35,438 bases of DNA, from assembly GCA_024638965.1 (NCBI GenBank), contig JAHEJI010000034.1:1-35438 (forward strand), in the 5' to 3' direction. The position numbers and the translations under genes are program-made. The notes under the pieces were generated by a model. That model was not told the DNA's origin. It ran no database searches and saw nothing but the letters and a program-made list of their open reading frames with translations. How positions within the stretch are numbered: the stretch's first letter is position 1; every line of letters begins with the position of its first letter. This DNA is from Planctomycetaceae bacterium (GTDB lineage: Bacteria; Planctomycetota; Planctomycetia; Pirellulales; Pirellulaceae). This document shows positions 6,219 through 12,347 of this stretch, piece after piece.

Positions 6219-7040
6219 TTGGCAAAATCGATCGTGAATAGACTCACCGACAATGACTCGAATTCGTCGACCGAACCGTCTGGGCAAGCAGGCGAACCCA
6301 GGCCGCCAAGTCTGGCTGGTAAAGTCAAACGGCGGCGAATTTTGGTTTTAGTCGCTTCTCTGATTCTGTTCGTCGCAGTTTTCGTTCTGATCAAGCAGCA
6401 TTTTGATCTCAATCAACTGGTTGAGCAAGAAACGGCTTTGAAGGATTATTATCGGGAGCACCCGAATCTGGTGCTACTGATTGCCTTTTTATTATACGTG
6501 CTGATTACCGCGTTAACGATTCCAGTCGCGACTGTGTTGTCTTTGTTGTACGCCTGGTTCTTCGGTTTTTTTTACGCCCTGATTTTGATCAGCTTTGCGT
6601 CGACCGCAGGCGCCACCATTGCTTTCCTGATCAGCCGATACGTATTACGTGATTTTGTGCAATCCAGATTCGGCGGTCGGCTGGCCATTATAAATTCCGC
6701 GCTTGATAAAGAGGGCGCTTACTACCTGTTTACGCTGCGACTGGTACCCGTGATCCCGTTCTCGGTGATCAATTCGGTCATGGGTTTGACGAAAATGAAG
6801 ACGATTACCTTTTGGTGGATCAGTCAGGCGGGAATGTTGGCCGGAACAGCTGTGTACGTCTACGCCGGTTCAAGAATTCCAAATCTGGAAACGCTTCAGG
6901 AAAAAGGAATTGAAGCGGTTTATTCCCCTTGGCAACTGACTCAGATCACCATCGCTTTTGCGTTGATAGGGATCTTGCCTTTTGCGATCAAACGGATTGT
7001 TGAGTACCTTCGTTCGTTCAATTCCGACTCGAAAGATTAG
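6219..7040 (+). CDS. TVP38/TMEM64 (DedA-like VTT domain) membrane protein
   Basis: A 273-residue integral membrane protein. A charged cytoplasmic N-terminus (about 1-40) is followed by a first membrane helix (about 43-60). The SNARE-associated/VTT core spans about 75-260, with the re-entrant-loop signature around STAGATIAFLISRY (about 128-141) and the conserved RLVPVIPFSVINSVMGLT (about 173-190). Proteins of this family act as lipid scramblases or as transporters linked to undecaprenyl phosphate recycling; which applies here is not shown. The start is a TTG at 6219 with no good Shine-Dalgarno; a GTG at 6234 is an alternative. Its stop codon (7038-7040) overlaps the stop codon of the opposite-strand crotonase gene, so the two are convergent with no room for a separate terminator. 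Confidence 0.9.
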   Translation: MAKSIVNRLTDNDSNSSTEPSGQAGEPRPPSLAGKVKRRRILVLVASLILFVAVFVLIKQHFDLNQLVEQETALKDYYREHPNLVLLIAFLLYVLITALTIPVATVLSLLYAWFFGFFYALILISFASTAGATIAFLISRYVLRDFVQSRFGGRLAIINSALDKEGAYYLFTLRLVPVIPFSVINSVMGLTKMKTITFWWISQAGMLAGTAVYVYAGSRIPNLETLQEKGIEAVYSPWQLTQITIAFALIGILPFAIKRIVEYLRSFNSDSKD

Positions 7041-7783
7041 AGTCGCTTAGCCACGTATGTACGAATCGCGTTGCGAATTTCGTCGGATCGCCAAAGTTCA
7101 AAAACTCGACTCTGAAATTCTGCTTCACCTTTCGCAATTCGGTCGATGGCGGGCTTTCGCAATTGTTTTTTTGAAATGCCAAACACCACCGACGGAATAT
7201 CGGCCAGTTGACTCGCTCGATCGAGTGCCACTTGTTGCTGTTCGTCGCGTTCGACCAATTCATCCGCAAGACCGTTTGCCAGACTCTCCTCGCCTGAAAA
7301 CGTCGAACCGATGTTTACCATCTTTTGAAAGGCTGGCGGTGCCGAAACCATCCGCATGATTTCGATCGCAACTGTCGGTAACGGGACGCCGACACGCAAT
7401 TCCGGAATCCCAATTTTTGCTTGGGGAGCCAACAATCGGTAGTCACAAGCGGATGCGATAATACAGCCGCCTGCCACCGCGTGCCCGTTGATCGCAGCAA
7501 TCAAGGGCTTTGAAAAACAAAACGCAGCTTTAAAAACGTCGATCAAAGCCCGCAGAAACTGATCCAGATAGGGAATTTCTTCTCTGATGACCCGTTTCAG
7601 GTCGACGCCCGCCGAAAAAACTTGACCGCTCCCTGTCAAAATTACGCCCCGACAAGAATCATCTTCCGCCAGTTCTTCAAGATTCGATTTCAGCTCATGG
7701 CAAAATTCGAGGTCCAGCGCATTAACTTTTCCATAAGACATGGTGATTGTCATGATTTGATTCGTCTTCGTGAACACAAACAT
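7037..7783 (-). CDS. Enoyl-CoA hydratase/isomerase (crotonase) family protein
   Basis: A 248-residue crotonase fold, cytoplasmic, acting on a CoA thioester. The two oxyanion-hole segments are visible: FSAGVDL (56-62) and AVAGGCI (102-108). One catalytic glutamate of the hydratases is retained in IPEL (E128). The position of the second hydratase glutamate (in the helix containing FQKMVNIG) appears to carry lysine or glutamine, so this may be an isomerase or another crotonase activity rather than a classical hydratase. This is my alignment by eye. The N-terminus lacks the usual extra strand before NALDLEF, so the first 15 residues are slightly short. There are no fatty-acid oxidation neighbours. 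The gene is convergent with the TVP38 gene, and its 5' side faces the long sigma-54 region. Confidence 0.88.
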   Translation of the reverse strand: MFVFTKTNQIMTITMSYGKVNALDLEFCHELKSNLEELAEDDSCRGVILTGSGQVFSAGVDLKRVIREEIPYLDQFLRALIDVFKAAFCFSKPLIAAINGHAVAGGCIIASACDYRLLAPQAKIGIPELRVGVPLPTVAIEIMRMVSAPPAFQKMVNIGSTFSGEESLANGLADELVERDEQQQVALDRASQLADIPSVVFGISKKQLRKPAIDRIAKGEAEFQSRVFELWRSDEIRNAIRTYVAKRL

Positions 7784-7789
7784 TGGCGA

Positions 7790-7834
7790 CTCGAATTTGA
7801 TCTCTTTATTAAATTAGCTTCTCATTTCGAGACA
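7790..7834 (+). promoter_or_regulatory. Candidate upstream activator site of sigma-54 promoter 1
   Basis: CTCGAATTTGAT (7790-7801) and TTCTCATTTCGAGACA (7819-7834) recur almost unchanged upstream of the second sigma-54 promoter at 8208-8220 and 8225-8240. The core TCTC-N5-GAGA is a short inverted repeat, as expected for a dimeric enhancer-binding protein. Its end lies 96 bp before the -24 GG. The regulator is unknown. Confidence 0.55.
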
Positions 7835-7927
7835 AAAATTAGCTGCAAAACTGACTTGGAGTTCGATTTCGCTTATGAACTTCCTAAAACAACCGAATAT
7901 TGACCACGAACAAATGTTTAATCGCAA

Positions 7928-7945
7928 TTGGCACGGGTGTTGCAT
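7928..7945 (+). promoter_or_regulatory. Sigma-54 (-24/-12) promoter 1
   Basis: TTGGCACGGGTGTTGCAT matches the RpoN consensus TGGCACR-N4-TTGCW at every defined position, with GG at 7930-7931 and GC at 7942-7943 (exactly ten bases between). The predicted start of transcription is about 7955. No coding sequence begins downstream before the terminator at 8030-8072, so the product would be a short RNA. Confidence 0.8.
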
Positions 7946-7954
7946 TCTTAACCC

Positions 7955-8072
7955 GCTGAACGGGATTCCTTCCAGTTTCTTGCCTCGTTGAGCCGGCATT
8001 AACGTCGGTCCGTTCTCTGCCATTATTCCAACGTGATTGTGAGCCATTCATCGTTTGCAATCACGTTTTTTT
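7955..8072 (+). ncRNA. Predicted sigma-54-dependent small RNA 1 (about 118 nt)
   Basis: This is bounded by the sigma-54 promoter and by an intrinsic terminator. The inferred 5' end lies in a small hairpin, CCCG-CTGAA-CGGG (7952-7964), followed by a pyrimidine-rich stretch TTCCTTCC (7966-7973) that could pair with purine-rich ribosome-binding sites. A second hairpin spans 7992-8009 (stem GCCGGC / GTCGGT with G-U pairs, loop ATTAAC). The terminator stem is at 8030-8067. There is no start codon with a ribosome site and a sensible reading frame. I do not recognise the RNA family. Ends are predictions from promoter geometry. Confidence 0.6.
8030..8072 (+). terminator. Intrinsic terminator of small RNA 1
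   Basis: A perfect 10-bp stem, AACGTGATTG (8030-8039) with CAATCACGTT (8058-8067), and an 18-nt loop. T7 runs from 8066 to 8072, overlapping the end of the stem. This is a strong rho-independent terminator for + strand transcription. Confidence 0.85.
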
Positions 8073-8207
8073 GTGCGCACTCTGGACTTCGGACAAAAAT
8101 TTATCGTCTATTAGTTCATTGACATATCATTTGGGCAACAGGCAAGTTCACGATCCAGGCTAACCCAAACACGAATTTGAAAAAGCCTTCCCCAGCAGTT
8201 GAGTCAT

Positions 8208-8240
8208 CTCGAAATTTGATTCGGTTCTCATATCGAGACA
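8208..8240 (+). promoter_or_regulatory. Candidate upstream activator site of sigma-54 promoter 2
   Basis: CTCGAAATTTGAT (8208-8220) and TTCTCATATCGAGACA (8225-8240) are the second copies of the element at 7790-7834, with one mismatch in the 16-bp part. The end of the element is 75 bp before the -24 GG, compared with 96 bp in unit 1; the 21-bp difference is two helical turns. A partial extra copy, ACGAATTTGA, is at 8171-8180. Confidence 0.55.
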
Positions 8241-8313
8241 TTCGAGGAAGAGCCGAGGATAGAAGGCTCATTAAAGCCCATGCTTTTTGAGGAATGTATC
8301 TTTTATTTTGCAA

Positions 8314-8330
8314 TGGCACAACGATTGCTT
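8314..8330 (+). promoter_or_regulatory. Sigma-54 (-24/-12) promoter 2
   Basis: TGGCACAACGATTGCTT again matches TGGCACR-N4-TTGCW, with GG at 8315-8316 and GC at 8327-8328 and ten bases between. The predicted transcription start is about 8340. It is followed by a structured non-coding stretch and a terminator ending at 8460. Confidence 0.78.
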
Positions 8331-8339
8331 TACATTCCT

Positions 8340-8460
8340 TCGTGAGCGGGCGTTACGCCCGATAGTTCTCATCCCATCCGCCGTCTCACGGGTGCCCGCT
8401 CATCTCTCCTTAAATTCCAAACGCGGCTGTGCAACGTGCACCCCACCAGCCGCGTTTTTT
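8340..8460 (+). ncRNA. Predicted sigma-54-dependent small RNA 2 (about 121 nt)
   Basis: This is bounded by sigma-54 promoter 2 and an 11-bp terminator. Two mutually exclusive folds can be drawn at the 5' end. One is a local hairpin GGGCG-TTA-CGCCC (8348-8360). The other is a long-range 9-bp helix, TGAGCGGGC (8343-8351) with GCCCGCTCA (8394-8402), extended by CCCG (8358-8361) with CGGG (8389-8392). A single-stranded linker, CTCTCCTT (8404-8411), is complementary to Shine-Dalgarno sequences. Length and layout parallel RNA 1, but the primary sequences differ. I do not recognise a known family, and the 5' end is inferred. Confidence 0.6.
8419..8460 (+). terminator. Intrinsic terminator of small RNA 2
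   Basis: A perfect 11-bp stem, AAACGCGGCTG (8419-8429) with CAGCCGCGTTT (8447-8457). Six T residues span 8455-8460, the first three of them in the stem. An inner hairpin, GTGCA-ACG-TGCAC (8429-8441), is possible in the loop. It lies 110 bp before the rtcA start codon and would attenuate read-through into rtcA. Confidence 0.85.
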
Positions 8461-8570
8461 CATGCGCTGCTACAAACACAAACCAGGTTTTGGATTGGTG
8501 GTTGTGAACCTAAGCTGCCAATCGTTCTCTTACTACTTTACGCTTGTTTAATATTGCGCAAAGAACATAC

Positions 8571-9608
8571 ATGATCAAGATTGACGGTTCGCGGGGCGAA
8601 GGCGGTGGGCAAATTATCCGTTCGGCGCTGGCACTGAGCGCGGTTACGGGGACGCCTTTTGAAATTGAACGAATCCGTGGCAACCGAAAAAAGCCCGGTC
8701 TGTTAAGACAACATTTGACCGCAGTCAATGCCGCTCGCGACGTCTGCGATGCGGGTGTAACCGGAGCGAACTTGCATTCCAGCCATCTCATTTTCGCACC
8801 CGGCAAGATTCAGGCTCGCGAATTCAATTTTCGAATCGGCACCGCTGGCAGCGCGACACTCGTTGTCCAAACCGTTTTGCCCACCTTGATGACGGCAGCG
8901 CGTCCCTCACGGATAATTGTTGAAGGTGGCACTCACAACATGTCGGCTCCACCTTACGACTACCTGGATCGAGTTTATCTGCCGCTCGTTTCAAAACTCG
9001 GGCCGAAGTTTGAACGTCGCATCGAGTCGTACGGTTTCTATCCGATCGGCGGAGGGCGTATTGTAATTGACATCGAACCTGCCCAAGATCTATCGTCTCT
9101 TGAGCTGATTGAGCGCGGTGGAAAACCAAATCCAACGGTGATCGCGCTGGTTTCCAAACTCCCGCTTGATATTGGTAAGCGAGAATGCGATGTGATACGC
9201 CGCAAGTCGGGCTGGAAACCCGATCGCTTTTCCGTTCAGGAAATCACGAATTCTCCTGGCCCCGGAAACGTGGTCATGATTCACCTGGTCAGTCCCAATG
9301 TCTCCGAGCTGTTTACTGGATTCGGTAAACGAGGAGTCAGAGCCGAGGACGTCGCGCGCGGCGTTTATCGTCAAGCAAAATCCTACCTGGCAAACACGGC
9401 ACCTGTTGGTGAATTTCTGGCCGACCAGTTGTTATTGCCGCTTGGTTTGGCGGCCGCGCAGGGTCAAACAAGCAGGTTTCGCACGGATAGGTTAACAATG
9501 CACGGCCAAACACACATCGACGTACTTAAGCTGTTTCTGGACATTGAAATTGAAGTCCAGCAGATAGACGATGCTTTCGAAATTACGGTTGGGCCTGCGA
9601 TTGGTTAA
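8571..9608 (+). CDS. rtcA: RNA 3'-terminal phosphate cyclase
   Basis: A 345-residue RtcA, the normal length of the family. It uses ATP to convert RNA 3'-phosphates to 2',3'-cyclic phosphates through an enzyme-AMP intermediate. The N-terminal signature GSRGEGGGQIIRSALALS is at residues 5-22. GTAGSATLVVQ and the C-terminal QTHIDVLKLFL, which carries the adenylylated histidine, are present. The ATG at 8571 is chosen because the protein then begins at the conserved start of the fold (MIKIDGSRGEGGG); the frame is open further upstream only through a TTG at 8544. No rtcB ligase or rtcR regulator lies in the window. Immediately upstream are two sigma-54 small-RNA units. In enterobacteria the rtcBA operon is itself sigma-54 dependent, which makes the arrangement notable. 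No clear promoter of its own is visible at 8461-8570. Confidence 0.95.
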   Translation: MIKIDGSRGEGGGQIIRSALALSAVTGTPFEIERIRGNRKKPGLLRQHLTAVNAARDVCDAGVTGANLHSSHLIFAPGKIQAREFNFRIGTAGSATLVVQTVLPTLMTAARPSRIIVEGGTHNMSAPPYDYLDRVYLPLVSKLGPKFERRIESYGFYPIGGGRIVIDIEPAQDLSSLELIERGGKPNPTVIALVSKLPLDIGKRECDVIRRKSGWKPDRFSVQEITNSPGPGNVVMIHLVSPNVSELFTGFGKRGVRAEDVARGVYRQAKSYLANTAPVGEFLADQLLLPLGLAAAQGQTSRFRTDRLTMHGQTHIDVLKLFLDIEIEVQQIDDAFEITVGPAIG

Positions 9609-9623
9609 GTGCAGCTGCAATTG

Positions 9624-12347
9624 TCACCCGTGAATTTCCGTCAGGCACTCGCGAAATGCTTCGATGATTTCCGTATTGGTTGTCGCATCACGAGCGCGAT
9701 ACAGGAAATCCGTTTTTAAACAAAGCCTGGACAGTTCCGCGAGAATCTTCAGGTGGGTTTGGCGATTGTTGGGTGAACCTGTCGTAAAGAGAAGTACATC
9801 GACTTTGTCTTGATTAACCGTTCCGTAGTCAATTGGCTTGGCGGTCGTGATAATCGCGATCGCGGAATCAGAGCTGCCCGCTTGCGTCAATGTTGCGTGG
9901 GGCATGGCCAGGCCATTGCCAACACCTGTGTTTTGTAATTGCTCGCGTTCCCAGAGCGCGGAATTAATGATAATCGGGCTGATATCAGGATAGTGCTTTC
10001 CAAGCAGTTCCGTTGCCGTTCGGAACAAATCCTCTTTCTTGGTAACATCCAGTCGGGCTTTAACACACTCCGCATCGACAAAGCCGAGTAGATCAAATTC
10101 TCTCTCGACGGGTAAATGCTCAACATCAAATGCTTCGTGCGTCTGTAGAAACGGAGTCTTGAGCCAGAGCACCGAACATTCCGCCCTGCGTGTCAAATTG
10201 TCTTTGGGTGTTCCCCACAACCTGCCTTTCAGGGTCCGATTTGGTGCCGCGCCCATGATCATCAGGTCATAGGCAGCCGTCGCTTTCAGGATTGCTTCTA
10301 GTTCGTTTGTTCCATTAACCACTACCGCGGTCGTCGGACTAACGCATAAGTCTCGTAGTTGATCGATATAGTCGGCTCGTGCCTGTGTGCTAATCGGATC
10401 TTGTCCATCTGCACCAAAACAAATGAAATTCAACTCCGCTTTGTAGACTTGAGCCAAGTGGTCCGCTGTGGTTACAACCAACGAATCGTGAGGTCCGGGT
10501 TCAGCAAATACAAGAATCTGTCGAATGTACCTGACGCCTTCGTCTTTAAAGACCGCCAGATTGCATGGCAGATGGTCCTGAAGCCAGCCCAGCGGATTTT
10601 GAAACGAAATTCCGAACCTTCGCCGCCCGGCCGCCTCCATCACCACCCATTCGCAATCCAGCCGATCGGCGACTTCGTGGATCGTATGCACCACGTCGCG
10701 AGTGACGGTTTTATCATATTCCAGCTCGACACCTTCGACTTCGGCCATCACGTGAATTCGGCGACTGAGGGCGATCGAGTGTTGATCTTCTTCAAGTGCA
10801 TCGGCGAGATAAATCTGTTCTGGAACAGGCGTGAGGTGGAGTACTTCCAGCTTGCGACCGTGAGCTAAGGAAGCTCCCATCTCGACGAGCGTTTCCGGCG
10901 ATCGTTCGTTGCCGAATAGTGGCACAACCACCGCAGCTTCCTGTGGCAAGTCCTCCGCGAGTGTCGTTACAAATCCTTCGTTGCGTTCAGGAACCAGATC
11001 GGGACGCCTCCCCATTTTTCCGAGCACGCCGCGACGGTCAGTTTTTCGCTGACCGTAACCAAAATACGAGATCGCTCCCACGACAACAATACAGCCGATG
11101 GCATATAGACTGGTAAATCCCATAGCGGCTAACAGAGCAATGCCACTTACAACTCCGAGAATTTGCGTCAGCGGATAAAGCGGCGAACGAAATCGTGGCT
11201 TGTACCATGAACTGGCAATTTCCCGCAGGACAATGACGGTCCCGCAAACAAACATGAACGCGAGGATCATGAATGCGCTCGCCAATTTGGCGATCTGTTC
11301 CACCGGCAAAAACAAGATGGTAATCGTCATCACAAAAGCTGTTAACAAAATGCTGGCCACCGGCGTCCTGAAATAGGGATTGATCGATTTGATTACCTCG
11401 GGAAGCAATTGATCTCGGCTCATCGCAAACGGGAAACGGGACGCGGCCAGCAACCCGGCGACTGCCATGGAAACCATCGTTATCACGGCTAACACTGCGG
11501 CAATGATTCCAGCCGTGGTTCCACCAACAATGGAGGCCAGTGTATATATCGGATGAAGATCCGGGTTGCCTAATCCATCTGAGTCGGTCAAATCTTTGAT
11601 CGGAACATTGGTGACCAAAACAAAGACGACAAAAACGTAAACGCACATGACGATGAACCACGAAATCAGAATTCCCAGCGGAAGATTTCGATCCGGGTTT
11701 TTGACTTCCTCGGCGATCGCGGCAATTTTGGTGACGCCAGCATAGGAAACGTAAACAAATGCGGTCGCTGCCAGAAAACCGTGAAACCAATAGCTGGCTC
11801 CAACCATCCCCTTATGCGAAAACCCTTGCTCCAGGAATTCCAGCTTCATAGTTGAGACGCCTGCGATTGCCATCGCGATGAGGGCTATAAGTACACCTGA
11901 AATAATGAACTTTTGCAACTTGCTGATAATGCTCACGCCCAGAATGTTCAAGACCGTGATGACCGCCAGCAACGTCAAAGCTACAGGTCTTATTGGCAAT
12001 TCGATCAGCACAGACAAGTAAGCGCCGAACCCGACCAGCGCAAATGCACTTTTTAAGAGCAGCGACAGCCACAATCCCAATCCCGATATCGTACCGGCTA
12101 ACGGACCAAACGTTCGCTCCAGGTAAACGTAGGTTCCTCCCGAAGTTGGCATCGCCGTTGCCAATTCCGATTTGGACAAGGCTGCGGGCAACACGGTCAA
12201 CCCGGCAACCAAATAAGCCAGCCAAACCATTGGGCCCACCTTGGCAGCCGCCAGGCCCGGTAGCACGAAAATACCACTGCCCAGCATCGCACTGATGCTG
12301 ATCGCTACAACCGCGCCTAGTCCCAATCGTCGTTCAAGCGTTTTCAG
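9624..12347 (-). CDS. APC-family permease fused to two USP domains and a PTS EIIA-like domain
   Basis: Numbering is from the TTG at 12326. Residues 1-425 are a 12-helix amino acid/polyamine transporter of the APC type, with GSGIFVLPG (16-24), EEVKNPDRNLP (206-216) and SRFPFAMSRDQLLP (296-309). About 465-595 and 600-740 are two universal-stress-protein-like domains. About 750-900 resembles the fructose/nitrogen-type EIIA domain, with the phospho-accepting histidine in GLAMPHA (H810). The TTG at 12326 has no ribosome site. An in-frame CTG at 12347 has AGAAGG (12355-12360) seven bases upstream and restores the family N-terminus (KTLERRLGLG), so I place the start there. There is no ATG or GTG in the open frame upstream. 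The cytoplasmic half probably gates transport in response to nucleotide or phosphotransfer signals; the substrate is unknown. Confidence 0.9.
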   Translation of the reverse strand: MKTLERRLGLGAVVAISISAMLGSGIFVLPGLAAAKVGPMVWLAYLVAGLTVLPAALSKSELATAMPTSGGTYVYLERTFGPLAGTISGLGLWLSLLLKSAFALVGFGAYLSVLIELPIRPVALTLLAVITVLNILGVSIISKLQKFIISGVLIALIAMAIAGVSTMKLEFLEQGFSHKGMVGASYWFHGFLAATAFVYVSYAGVTKIAAIAEEVKNPDRNLPLGILISWFIVMCVYVFVVFVLVTNVPIKDLTDSDGLGNPDLHPIYTLASIVGGTTAGIIAAVLAVITMVSMAVAGLLAASRFPFAMSRDQLLPEVIKSINPYFRTPVASILLTAFVMTITILFLPVEQIAKLASAFMILAFMFVCGTVIVLREIASSWYKPRFRSPLYPLTQILGVVSGIALLAAMGFTSLYAIGCIVVVGAISYFGYGQRKTDRRGVLGKMGRRPDLVPERNEGFVTTLAEDLPQEAAVVVPLFGNERSPETLVEMGASLAHGRKLEVLHLTPVPEQIYLADALEEDQHSIALSRRIHVMAEVEGVELEYDKTVTRDVVHTIHEVADRLDCEWVVMEAAGRRRFGISFQNPLGWLQDHLPCNLAVFKDEGVRYIRQILVFAEPGPHDSLVVTTADHLAQVYKAELNFICFGADGQDPISTQARADYIDQLRDLCVSPTTAVVVNGTNELEAILKATAAYDLMIMGAAPNRTLKGRLWGTPKDNLTRRAECSVLWLKTPFLQTHEAFDVEHLPVEREFDLLGFVDAECVKARLDVTKKEDLFRTATELLGKHYPDISPIIINSALWEREQLQNTGVGNGLAMPHATLTQAGSSDSAIAIITTAKPIDYGTVNQDKVDVLLFTTGSPNNRQTHLKILAELSRLCLKTDFLYRARDATTNTEIIEAFRECLTEIHG

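Follow-up and report, generated by a model that had tools for sequence, protein, structure and literature searches.

The question raised by this locus is what, if anything, is made from a 787-bp gap between two protein genes in which two -24/-12 promoters, each followed by an intrinsic terminator, stand on one strand in front of rtcA. The gap lies in the window (the whole 35,438-nucleotide stretch of DNA that was analysed), which is contig C98 of a draft assembly; the genome measures 5.7 Mb and is 88.6% complete. The source is a marine planctomycete, inferred to belong to the genus Mariniblastus in the family Pirellulaceae. A first, sequence-only reading had taken the gap to hold two discrete, sigma-54-controlled non-coding transcripts; sequence comparison now supports that proposal for the second of them, RNA 2, without any transcript data.

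Layout of the locus and its two -24/-12 sites

The gap runs from 7784 to 8570, between an enoyl-CoA hydratase gene (7037-7783, - strand) and rtcA (from 8571, + strand), the latter with a Pfam RTC match. It had been described as free of protein genes; the five reading frames (67-98 aa) that overlap with it have no Pfam match at E up to 0.1. Its features are as follows.

7801-7834, + strand: upstream activator site (UAS) 1, palindrome TCTCATTTCGAGACA at 7820-7834 with a TCTC half-site at 7801-7804, exactly 19 bp upstream; motif and spacing also occur in relatives
7929-7944, + strand: -24/-12 sigma-54 promoter 1 (TGGCAC ... TTGCA), TGGCACGGGTGTTGCA, ten bases between GG and GC
7955-8072, + strand: predicted small RNA 1, about 118 nt, its start inferred 12 nt after the -12 GC
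8030-8078, + strand: terminator 1, stem 8030-8067, T-run to 8072, then TGCGC at 8074-8078
8207-8240, + strand: UAS 2, palindrome TCTCATATCGAGACA at 8226-8240 with a degenerate copy, TCTCGAAATT, at 8207, exactly 19 bp upstream
8314-8329, + strand: -24/-12 sigma-54 promoter 2 (TGGCAC ... TTGCT), TGGCACAACGATTGCT, GG-N10-GC; 42 of the 48 distinct hits of the models have such an element here
8340-8460, + strand: predicted small RNA 2, of about 121 nt, which belongs to the structured family of models R1 and R2
8342-8403, + strand: hairpin of RNA 2, helices P1 (8342-8351/8394-8403) and P2 (8358-8361/8389-8392), with covariation on alignment A3
8365-8388, + strand: conserved single-stranded apical loop of RNA 2, GTTCTCATCCCATCCGCCGTCTCA, a proposed pairing or protein-binding segment
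8419-8467, + strand: terminator 2, stem 8419-8457, T-run to 8460, then TGCGC at 8463-8467

The promoter pair held as first described, with both elements on the same strand, 385 bp apart, and ten bases from GG to GC in each. They are the sole matches to TGGCRCR-N4-TTGCW in the whole window when one mismatch is allowed. The number of such matches expected by chance is 1.84, so the two sites are not significant by themselves and their significance rests on conservation. The predicted starts, 7955 and 8340, lie 12 nt past the -12 GC and would give RNAs of about 118 and 121 nt; when these were folded with their terminators, none of 200 shuffles reached their energy (z -3.70 for RNA 1 and -4.72 for RNA 2). 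UAS 1 is likely to be the site of an enhancer-binding protein, as inferred from its sequence, with binding untested.

Both terminators are where the sequence-only reading had placed them. Its description of their stems as perfect held for terminator 1, a continuous stem of 15 pairs including G-U, and failed for terminator 2, in which a 10-pair stem bears an inner 5-pair stem with a 6-nt bulge. An automated terminator scan of 6500-10000 reported terminator 1 and missed terminator 2, and over that interval it found no excess of terminators over shuffled sequence (3 found vs a mean of 4.6).

The structured family of RNA 2 and its putative control elements

RNA 2 is a member of a conserved structured RNA family, in which promoter, structure and terminator are conserved far above background. 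When the whole 787-bp gap was compared by blastn with 60 genomes, matches were found in 14, all of the same genus and the source genome included. There are 15 matched places outside the window, 14 of which fall inside 8314-8433, an interval that takes in promoter 2 and the RNA downstream of it. The fifteenth (L013) looks like coding sequence and was rejected as a relative of the RNA.

A first model, R1, was built from 14 aligned bodies with promoter and terminator left out; it scores RNA 2 in the window at 70.6 bits (E 2.3e-17), the RNA 2 sequence being part of its training set. Within the genus it matches 23 of 28 genomes at E up to 0.01; in a set of 119 family genomes it matches 11 at that threshold, a count that includes the source genome and some false matches. 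The second model, R2, again of the body only, was built from 39 matches and at the same threshold finds 31 of 241 family genomes: 24 of the 28 in the genus and 7 of the 213 outside it, one of the seven (G190) being without the promoter. This R2 search was run with strict filters, as was that of 294 genomes drawn across the phylum, where weak matches are lost and the sole R2 match was the source genome. A scan of named genomes gave 26 stretches, and R2 matches 11 of them, every one from a record under the name Pirellulaceae, Planctomycetaceae or Mariniblastus; no R2 match was obtained for the remaining 15, one of them from the planctomycete Roseiconus nitratireducens, and these were taken as chance.

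The evidence for structure comes from base pairs that change on both sides. In alignment A3, with 38 distinct sequences, 14 of the 15 pairs do so, and pairing holds in 89.5% of cells. Its covariation score of 0.450 compares with 0.241 for shuffled alignments, none of 500 scoring as high, and with at most 0.145 for slid partners. A3 was fitted to the structure, and its score is therefore favoured. Alignment A2, made by sequence only, gives a weaker signal (0.311 vs 0.242; 6 of the 500 shuffles reach it, and slid partners no more than 0.192), and its further pair types, 15, fall below the 17.4 of the shuffles.

Conservation of promoter and terminator in relatives had been named beforehand as the computational test of the two-transcript proposal, and RNA 2 passed it. 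For this count, 48 distinct hits were pooled from the R1 and R2 searches, weak and false ones included; a 23-position hit at a contig start (G004:C24) was left out of the 48 and of the promoter count. An element of the form GG(C/T)A(C/T)...GC, with exactly N10 and ending 11-14 nt before the body, is present in 42 of the 48, against a background at that place of 74 in 30,000 random positions of the fetched regions. Neither model has a promoter column, and the conservation of the promoter is thus independent of them. The six hits without it are the second tandem copy in G006, G190, L052, L053, L057, and L056, which is cut by a contig end; of these, L052, L053 (with an identical body in L054), L057 and G190 were taken as false and nonetheless kept in the 48.

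Behind the promoter, a hairpin of -9 kcal/mol or better with a T-run follows within 170 nt in 38 of the 42 promoter-bearing hits (vs 48 of 300 random positions), and 31 of those 38 would yield transcripts of 111-138 nt. Ahead of it, the palindrome TCTCA-N3-TGAGA lies upstream of most family members. A loose UAS expression was found upstream of 38 of the 48 hits, all of them among the promoter-bearing 42, compared with 444 of 20,000 random positions, and paired copies, where displayed, are 19 bp apart.

The terminators share a further mark. The string TTTTT-N0-6-TGCGC occurs 43 times in 766,200 bases (the window plus 60 regions), and in 24 of the 43 it is preceded within 260 bp by TGGCA-N7-TGC, vs 1.9% of random positions; the TGCGC tail is present in 26 of the 42 promoter-bearing hits.

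No Rfam family accounts for these RNAs: the window has no match at the gathering score, 7780-8580 has none up to E 5, and 13 related loci have none at the gathering score. The RNA 2 family is new relative to Rfam in this sense; no comparison was made with the alignment of the Rhodopirellula-1 motif (Weinberg 2010, PMC2864571). The neighbours of the family copies are partly shared, with msrB, VTT and enoyl-CoA hydratase genes beside many of them, and partly different. In one genome (L040, G006:C4, 1501-1738) two family members lie 169 bp apart; they may come from one transcript, since neither a promoter nor a UAS could be assigned to the second by the search script.

The case of RNA 1 is different. 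The types of RNA distinguished here are type A, the modelled family; type B, with the loop GAUCUCCCGAAG and a length of up to about 200 nt; and type C (L061-L063), which R2 scores at 19.8, 33.4 and 21.3 bits. The reading of RNA 1 as a discrete transcript rests only on its UAS, promoter, terminator and TGCGC tail, which are of the same kind as those of RNA 2 and match the regulon; its body matches neither R1 nor R2 and has no blastn relative in 60 genomes. A possible closing stem (7958-7964/8009-8015) is at the right distance, in a fold 2.7 kcal/mol worse than the minimum-energy one. RNA 1 adjoins the enoyl-CoA hydratase gene, and the same gene stands beside a type A RNA in seven other regions and beside a type C RNA in three.

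Proposed mechanism, rival explanations and known systems

The preferred reading, which is considered likely, is that the region comprises two regulatory small RNA genes, each standing alone and both belonging to a single sigma-54 regulon, with RNA 2 acting in trans in a Qrr-like manner; transcription, activator, trans action and targets are all inferred. The support from sequence comparison covers RNA structure, promoter, UAS, terminator and regulon, and no RNA data stand behind the reading. As proposed, an unidentified enhancer-binding protein would bind TCTCA-N3-TGAGA, often paired 19 bp apart, about 80-190 bp upstream of the -24 element, and the bound activator would open sigma-54 RNA polymerase at the -24/-12 element. 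Transcription would begin near the foot of the hairpin and stop about 120 nt on at the intrinsic terminator. RNA 2 would form a two-helix hairpin displaying a pyrimidine-rich loop of the UCUCAUCCCAUCCGCCGUCUC type and would act in trans without Hfq, the loop pairing with purine-rich segments of mRNAs as in Qrr, and RNA 1, its body being different, would be its partner in the regulon. It is inferred that a single activator serves all the sites. A search of 28 genomes for complements to the 21-nt core of the loop, with up to three mismatches, found 13 places, all within the RNA genes themselves, and 3 with a reversed control. Any pairing of the loop with mRNA would have to be shorter, since no 21-nt complement exists elsewhere in those genomes.

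The main rival, a possible one, is that the RNAs are mainly decoys for an RNA-binding protein or an RNase, in the manner of GlmY or CrcZ, with the loop as the protein site. In its favour, the 24-nt loop is kept in many members and yet has no long complementary site in 28 genomes, no Hfq was found that might aid pairing (PF17209 matched in none of the 28 genomes of the genus, while the same search was positive in 5 of the 14 control genomes, including E. coli), and the presence of more than one copy in many genomes would fit titration. Against it, the loop sequence clearly varies between subfamilies, beyond what is expected of one protein site, and Qrr RNAs act by pairing and yet also keep a long core (PMC4211561). 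A narrower doubt concerns RNA 1, which could be a decayed or captured copy that has kept its promoter and terminator without function. Its body matches nothing found, while ten other regions have type A or C RNA genes beside the enoyl-CoA hydratase gene, and decay remains possible on those grounds. On the other side, the UAS with its half-site at 19 bp, the GG-N10-GC element, the strong terminator and the TGCGC tail are all intact; decay would not be expected to spare them and is disfavoured for that reason. RNA 1 is taken here to be a partner in the regulon whose body is of unknown type, and it may be an orthologue that changes fast.

The two remaining rivals concern the region as a whole. 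The gap could be the leader of rtcA, in a sigma-54- and RtcR-controlled RNA-repair operon with the terminators as attenuators. For this it can be said that rtcA starts 111 nt past the second T-run on the same strand, and that control of rtcBA by RtcR and sigma-54 has been described in Salmonella (PMC9879122, PMC7790460). Set against this, no rtcA homologue is clustered in 60 other regions (55 from other genomes and 5 from the source genome), no RtcR above the family cut-off was found in the 88.6%-complete genome, and the window has no third sigma-54 site at one mismatch, so that the leader is very unlikely. The original placing of the RNAs in front of rtcA is true as geography only, and rtcA looks like an accidental neighbour; a link to RNA damage is not supported, because rtcA is not a conserved neighbour and no RtcR exceeds the cut-off. 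Nor are the transcripts likely to be short mRNAs for small proteins, an explanation that is all but excluded. Some frame of at least 15 codons does occur in 16 of 36 family members, but no reading frame is common to the 36, the frames and their products differ between members, an ATG start is found in only 4 of the 36, and compensatory base changes are characteristic of RNA structure.

The preferred reading, of two regulatory RNA genes under one sigma-54 regulon, has one of its nearest counterparts in the Qrr RNAs of Vibrio, activated by LuxO. These too are stand-alone sibling small RNAs, several per genome, with a response regulator of the sigma-54 activator kind and one long conserved core, of 32 nt in Qrr (PMC4211561). 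Qrr genes are under sigma-54, with upstream activator sites and intrinsic terminators; Qrr RNAs use Hfq, and the UAS of LuxO differs from the TCTCA-N3-TGAGA palindrome. The window RNAs also differ from Qrr in having no Rfam match (in 7780-8580 up to E 5, neither the Qrr family with its 32-nt core nor any other matched), in the lack of any Hfq gene found in the genus, in the several hairpin bodies under one UAS and in an activator that is still unidentified. The enterobacterial GlmY and GlmZ resemble them as two related small RNAs under sigma-54 control, which is documented for glmY (PMC3162934). GlmY and GlmZ are highly homologous siblings, the GlmY decoy protecting GlmZ (PMC4211561), whereas the window RNAs differ in body and match no Rfam family. 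CrcZ and CrcY of Pseudomonas are sigma-54 small RNAs with a two-component activator and more than one per genome. The window RNAs would share the sigma-54 control with them and likewise number more than one per genome, but CrcZ is about 400 nt long with A-rich decoy motifs and the window RNAs are about 120 nt with a C/U-rich loop. In Salmonella the gene order rsr-yrlBA-rtcBA forms an RNA-repair operon with Y-like RNAs. The likeness is a sigma-54-driven non-coding RNA close to rtcA; here, by contrast, rtcA is not a conserved neighbour, there is no RtcR above the cut-off and the RNAs have terminators of their own.

The first reading had known of no description of sigma-54 small RNAs in planctomycetes, and none was found in the open-access literature searched, outside of which most subscription papers lie. 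Since sigma-54 small RNAs such as Qrr and GlmY are already known, the new part is the family, the phylum, the absence of any Hfq found and the several bodies per control site. Planctomycetes are a phylum with unusual cell biology, and with a covariance-supported RNA family, its promoter and its activator site in hand, direct tests become possible for the regulon, for the activator still missing and for RNA regulation without Hfq. Multi-copy sigma-54 small RNAs at such a distance from the proteobacteria are also relevant to the question of whether small RNAs came under sigma-54 control more than once.

Further genes behind the same putative control site

The combination of the palindrome, 60-120 bp and a -24/-12 element was counted 61 times in 28 genomes of the genus, compared with 4 when the pattern was reversed; the 61 include six promoters twice, since each has two palindromes ahead of it, and the motif was first noticed on R1 members, so that part of the 61 is the discovery set. 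A stricter UAS and sigma-54 pattern gave 51 matches vs 2 reversed in 27 genomes of the genus, and 50 vs 3 reversed in 213 family genomes outside it, three of the 50 being discovery set (G062, G079 and G125). Five loci of the stricter scan were inspected: two are type B RNA genes and three precede protein genes.

Eight matches to the pattern lie in the source genome itself. They comprise the two window RNAs, a family member on contig C16, a site at the end of C121 that nearly repeats the one on C16, two matches at an RNA of another type on C239, one upstream of the sigma-70-like gene of C104, and a last one, probably due to chance, inside a predicted gene of C127. The pair of RNAs originally taken as the unit is thus too small: sequence alone points to at least two further RNA genes in the genome, on C16 and C239, that share this UAS and promoter. 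Contigs C121 and C16 may adjoin, since the last part of C121, with its UAS and promoter, is almost a copy of the first part of C16.

The RNA on C239 (L118, G000:C239, about 8539-8740) is of type B and about 200 nt long, and is preceded by a sigma-54 promoter and by a pair of UAS copies with 19-bp spacing. Type B relatives were seen at L084, L085, L086, L066 and L131, and in another genus at L227 and L228.

A bolder reading can be put forward, though it is held with some reserve and the balance tips slightly against it. It would have a family-wide, Hfq-free small RNA regulon in the Pirellulaceae, in which bodies are exchanged behind a fixed control cassette; in this genus, at any rate, Hfq seems to be missing. 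As parts of the same joint claim, one enhancer-binding protein would act with sigma-54, the UAS, promoter, terminator and TGCGC tail would be shared, the 5' hairpins would be of types A, B, C and others, and genes for exported proteins would belong to it as well.

The genome has a gene for sigma-54 (rpoN) and 21 activator-domain matches, some of them partial. None of the 21 has the strict UAS motif at its locus, within 1.5 kb on either side where the contig allows. At L116 (G000:C104, 4609-9134), an NtrC-type response regulator and a histidine kinase have as neighbour a sigma-70-family gene with a UAS and sigma-54 site at its start; this cluster is a lead only for the activator.

The TGCGC that directly follows the T-run is kept across RNA types, though it would be expected to lie beyond the end of the RNA, and is unexplained. 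Apparent genes for exported proteins were also seen behind the same UAS and sigma-54 promoter at L121, L125, L127, L128 and L225 (and L122 and L129); these loci come from several genomes, one of them of another genus, and one of the proteins, of 345 aa, has a weak CARDB match.
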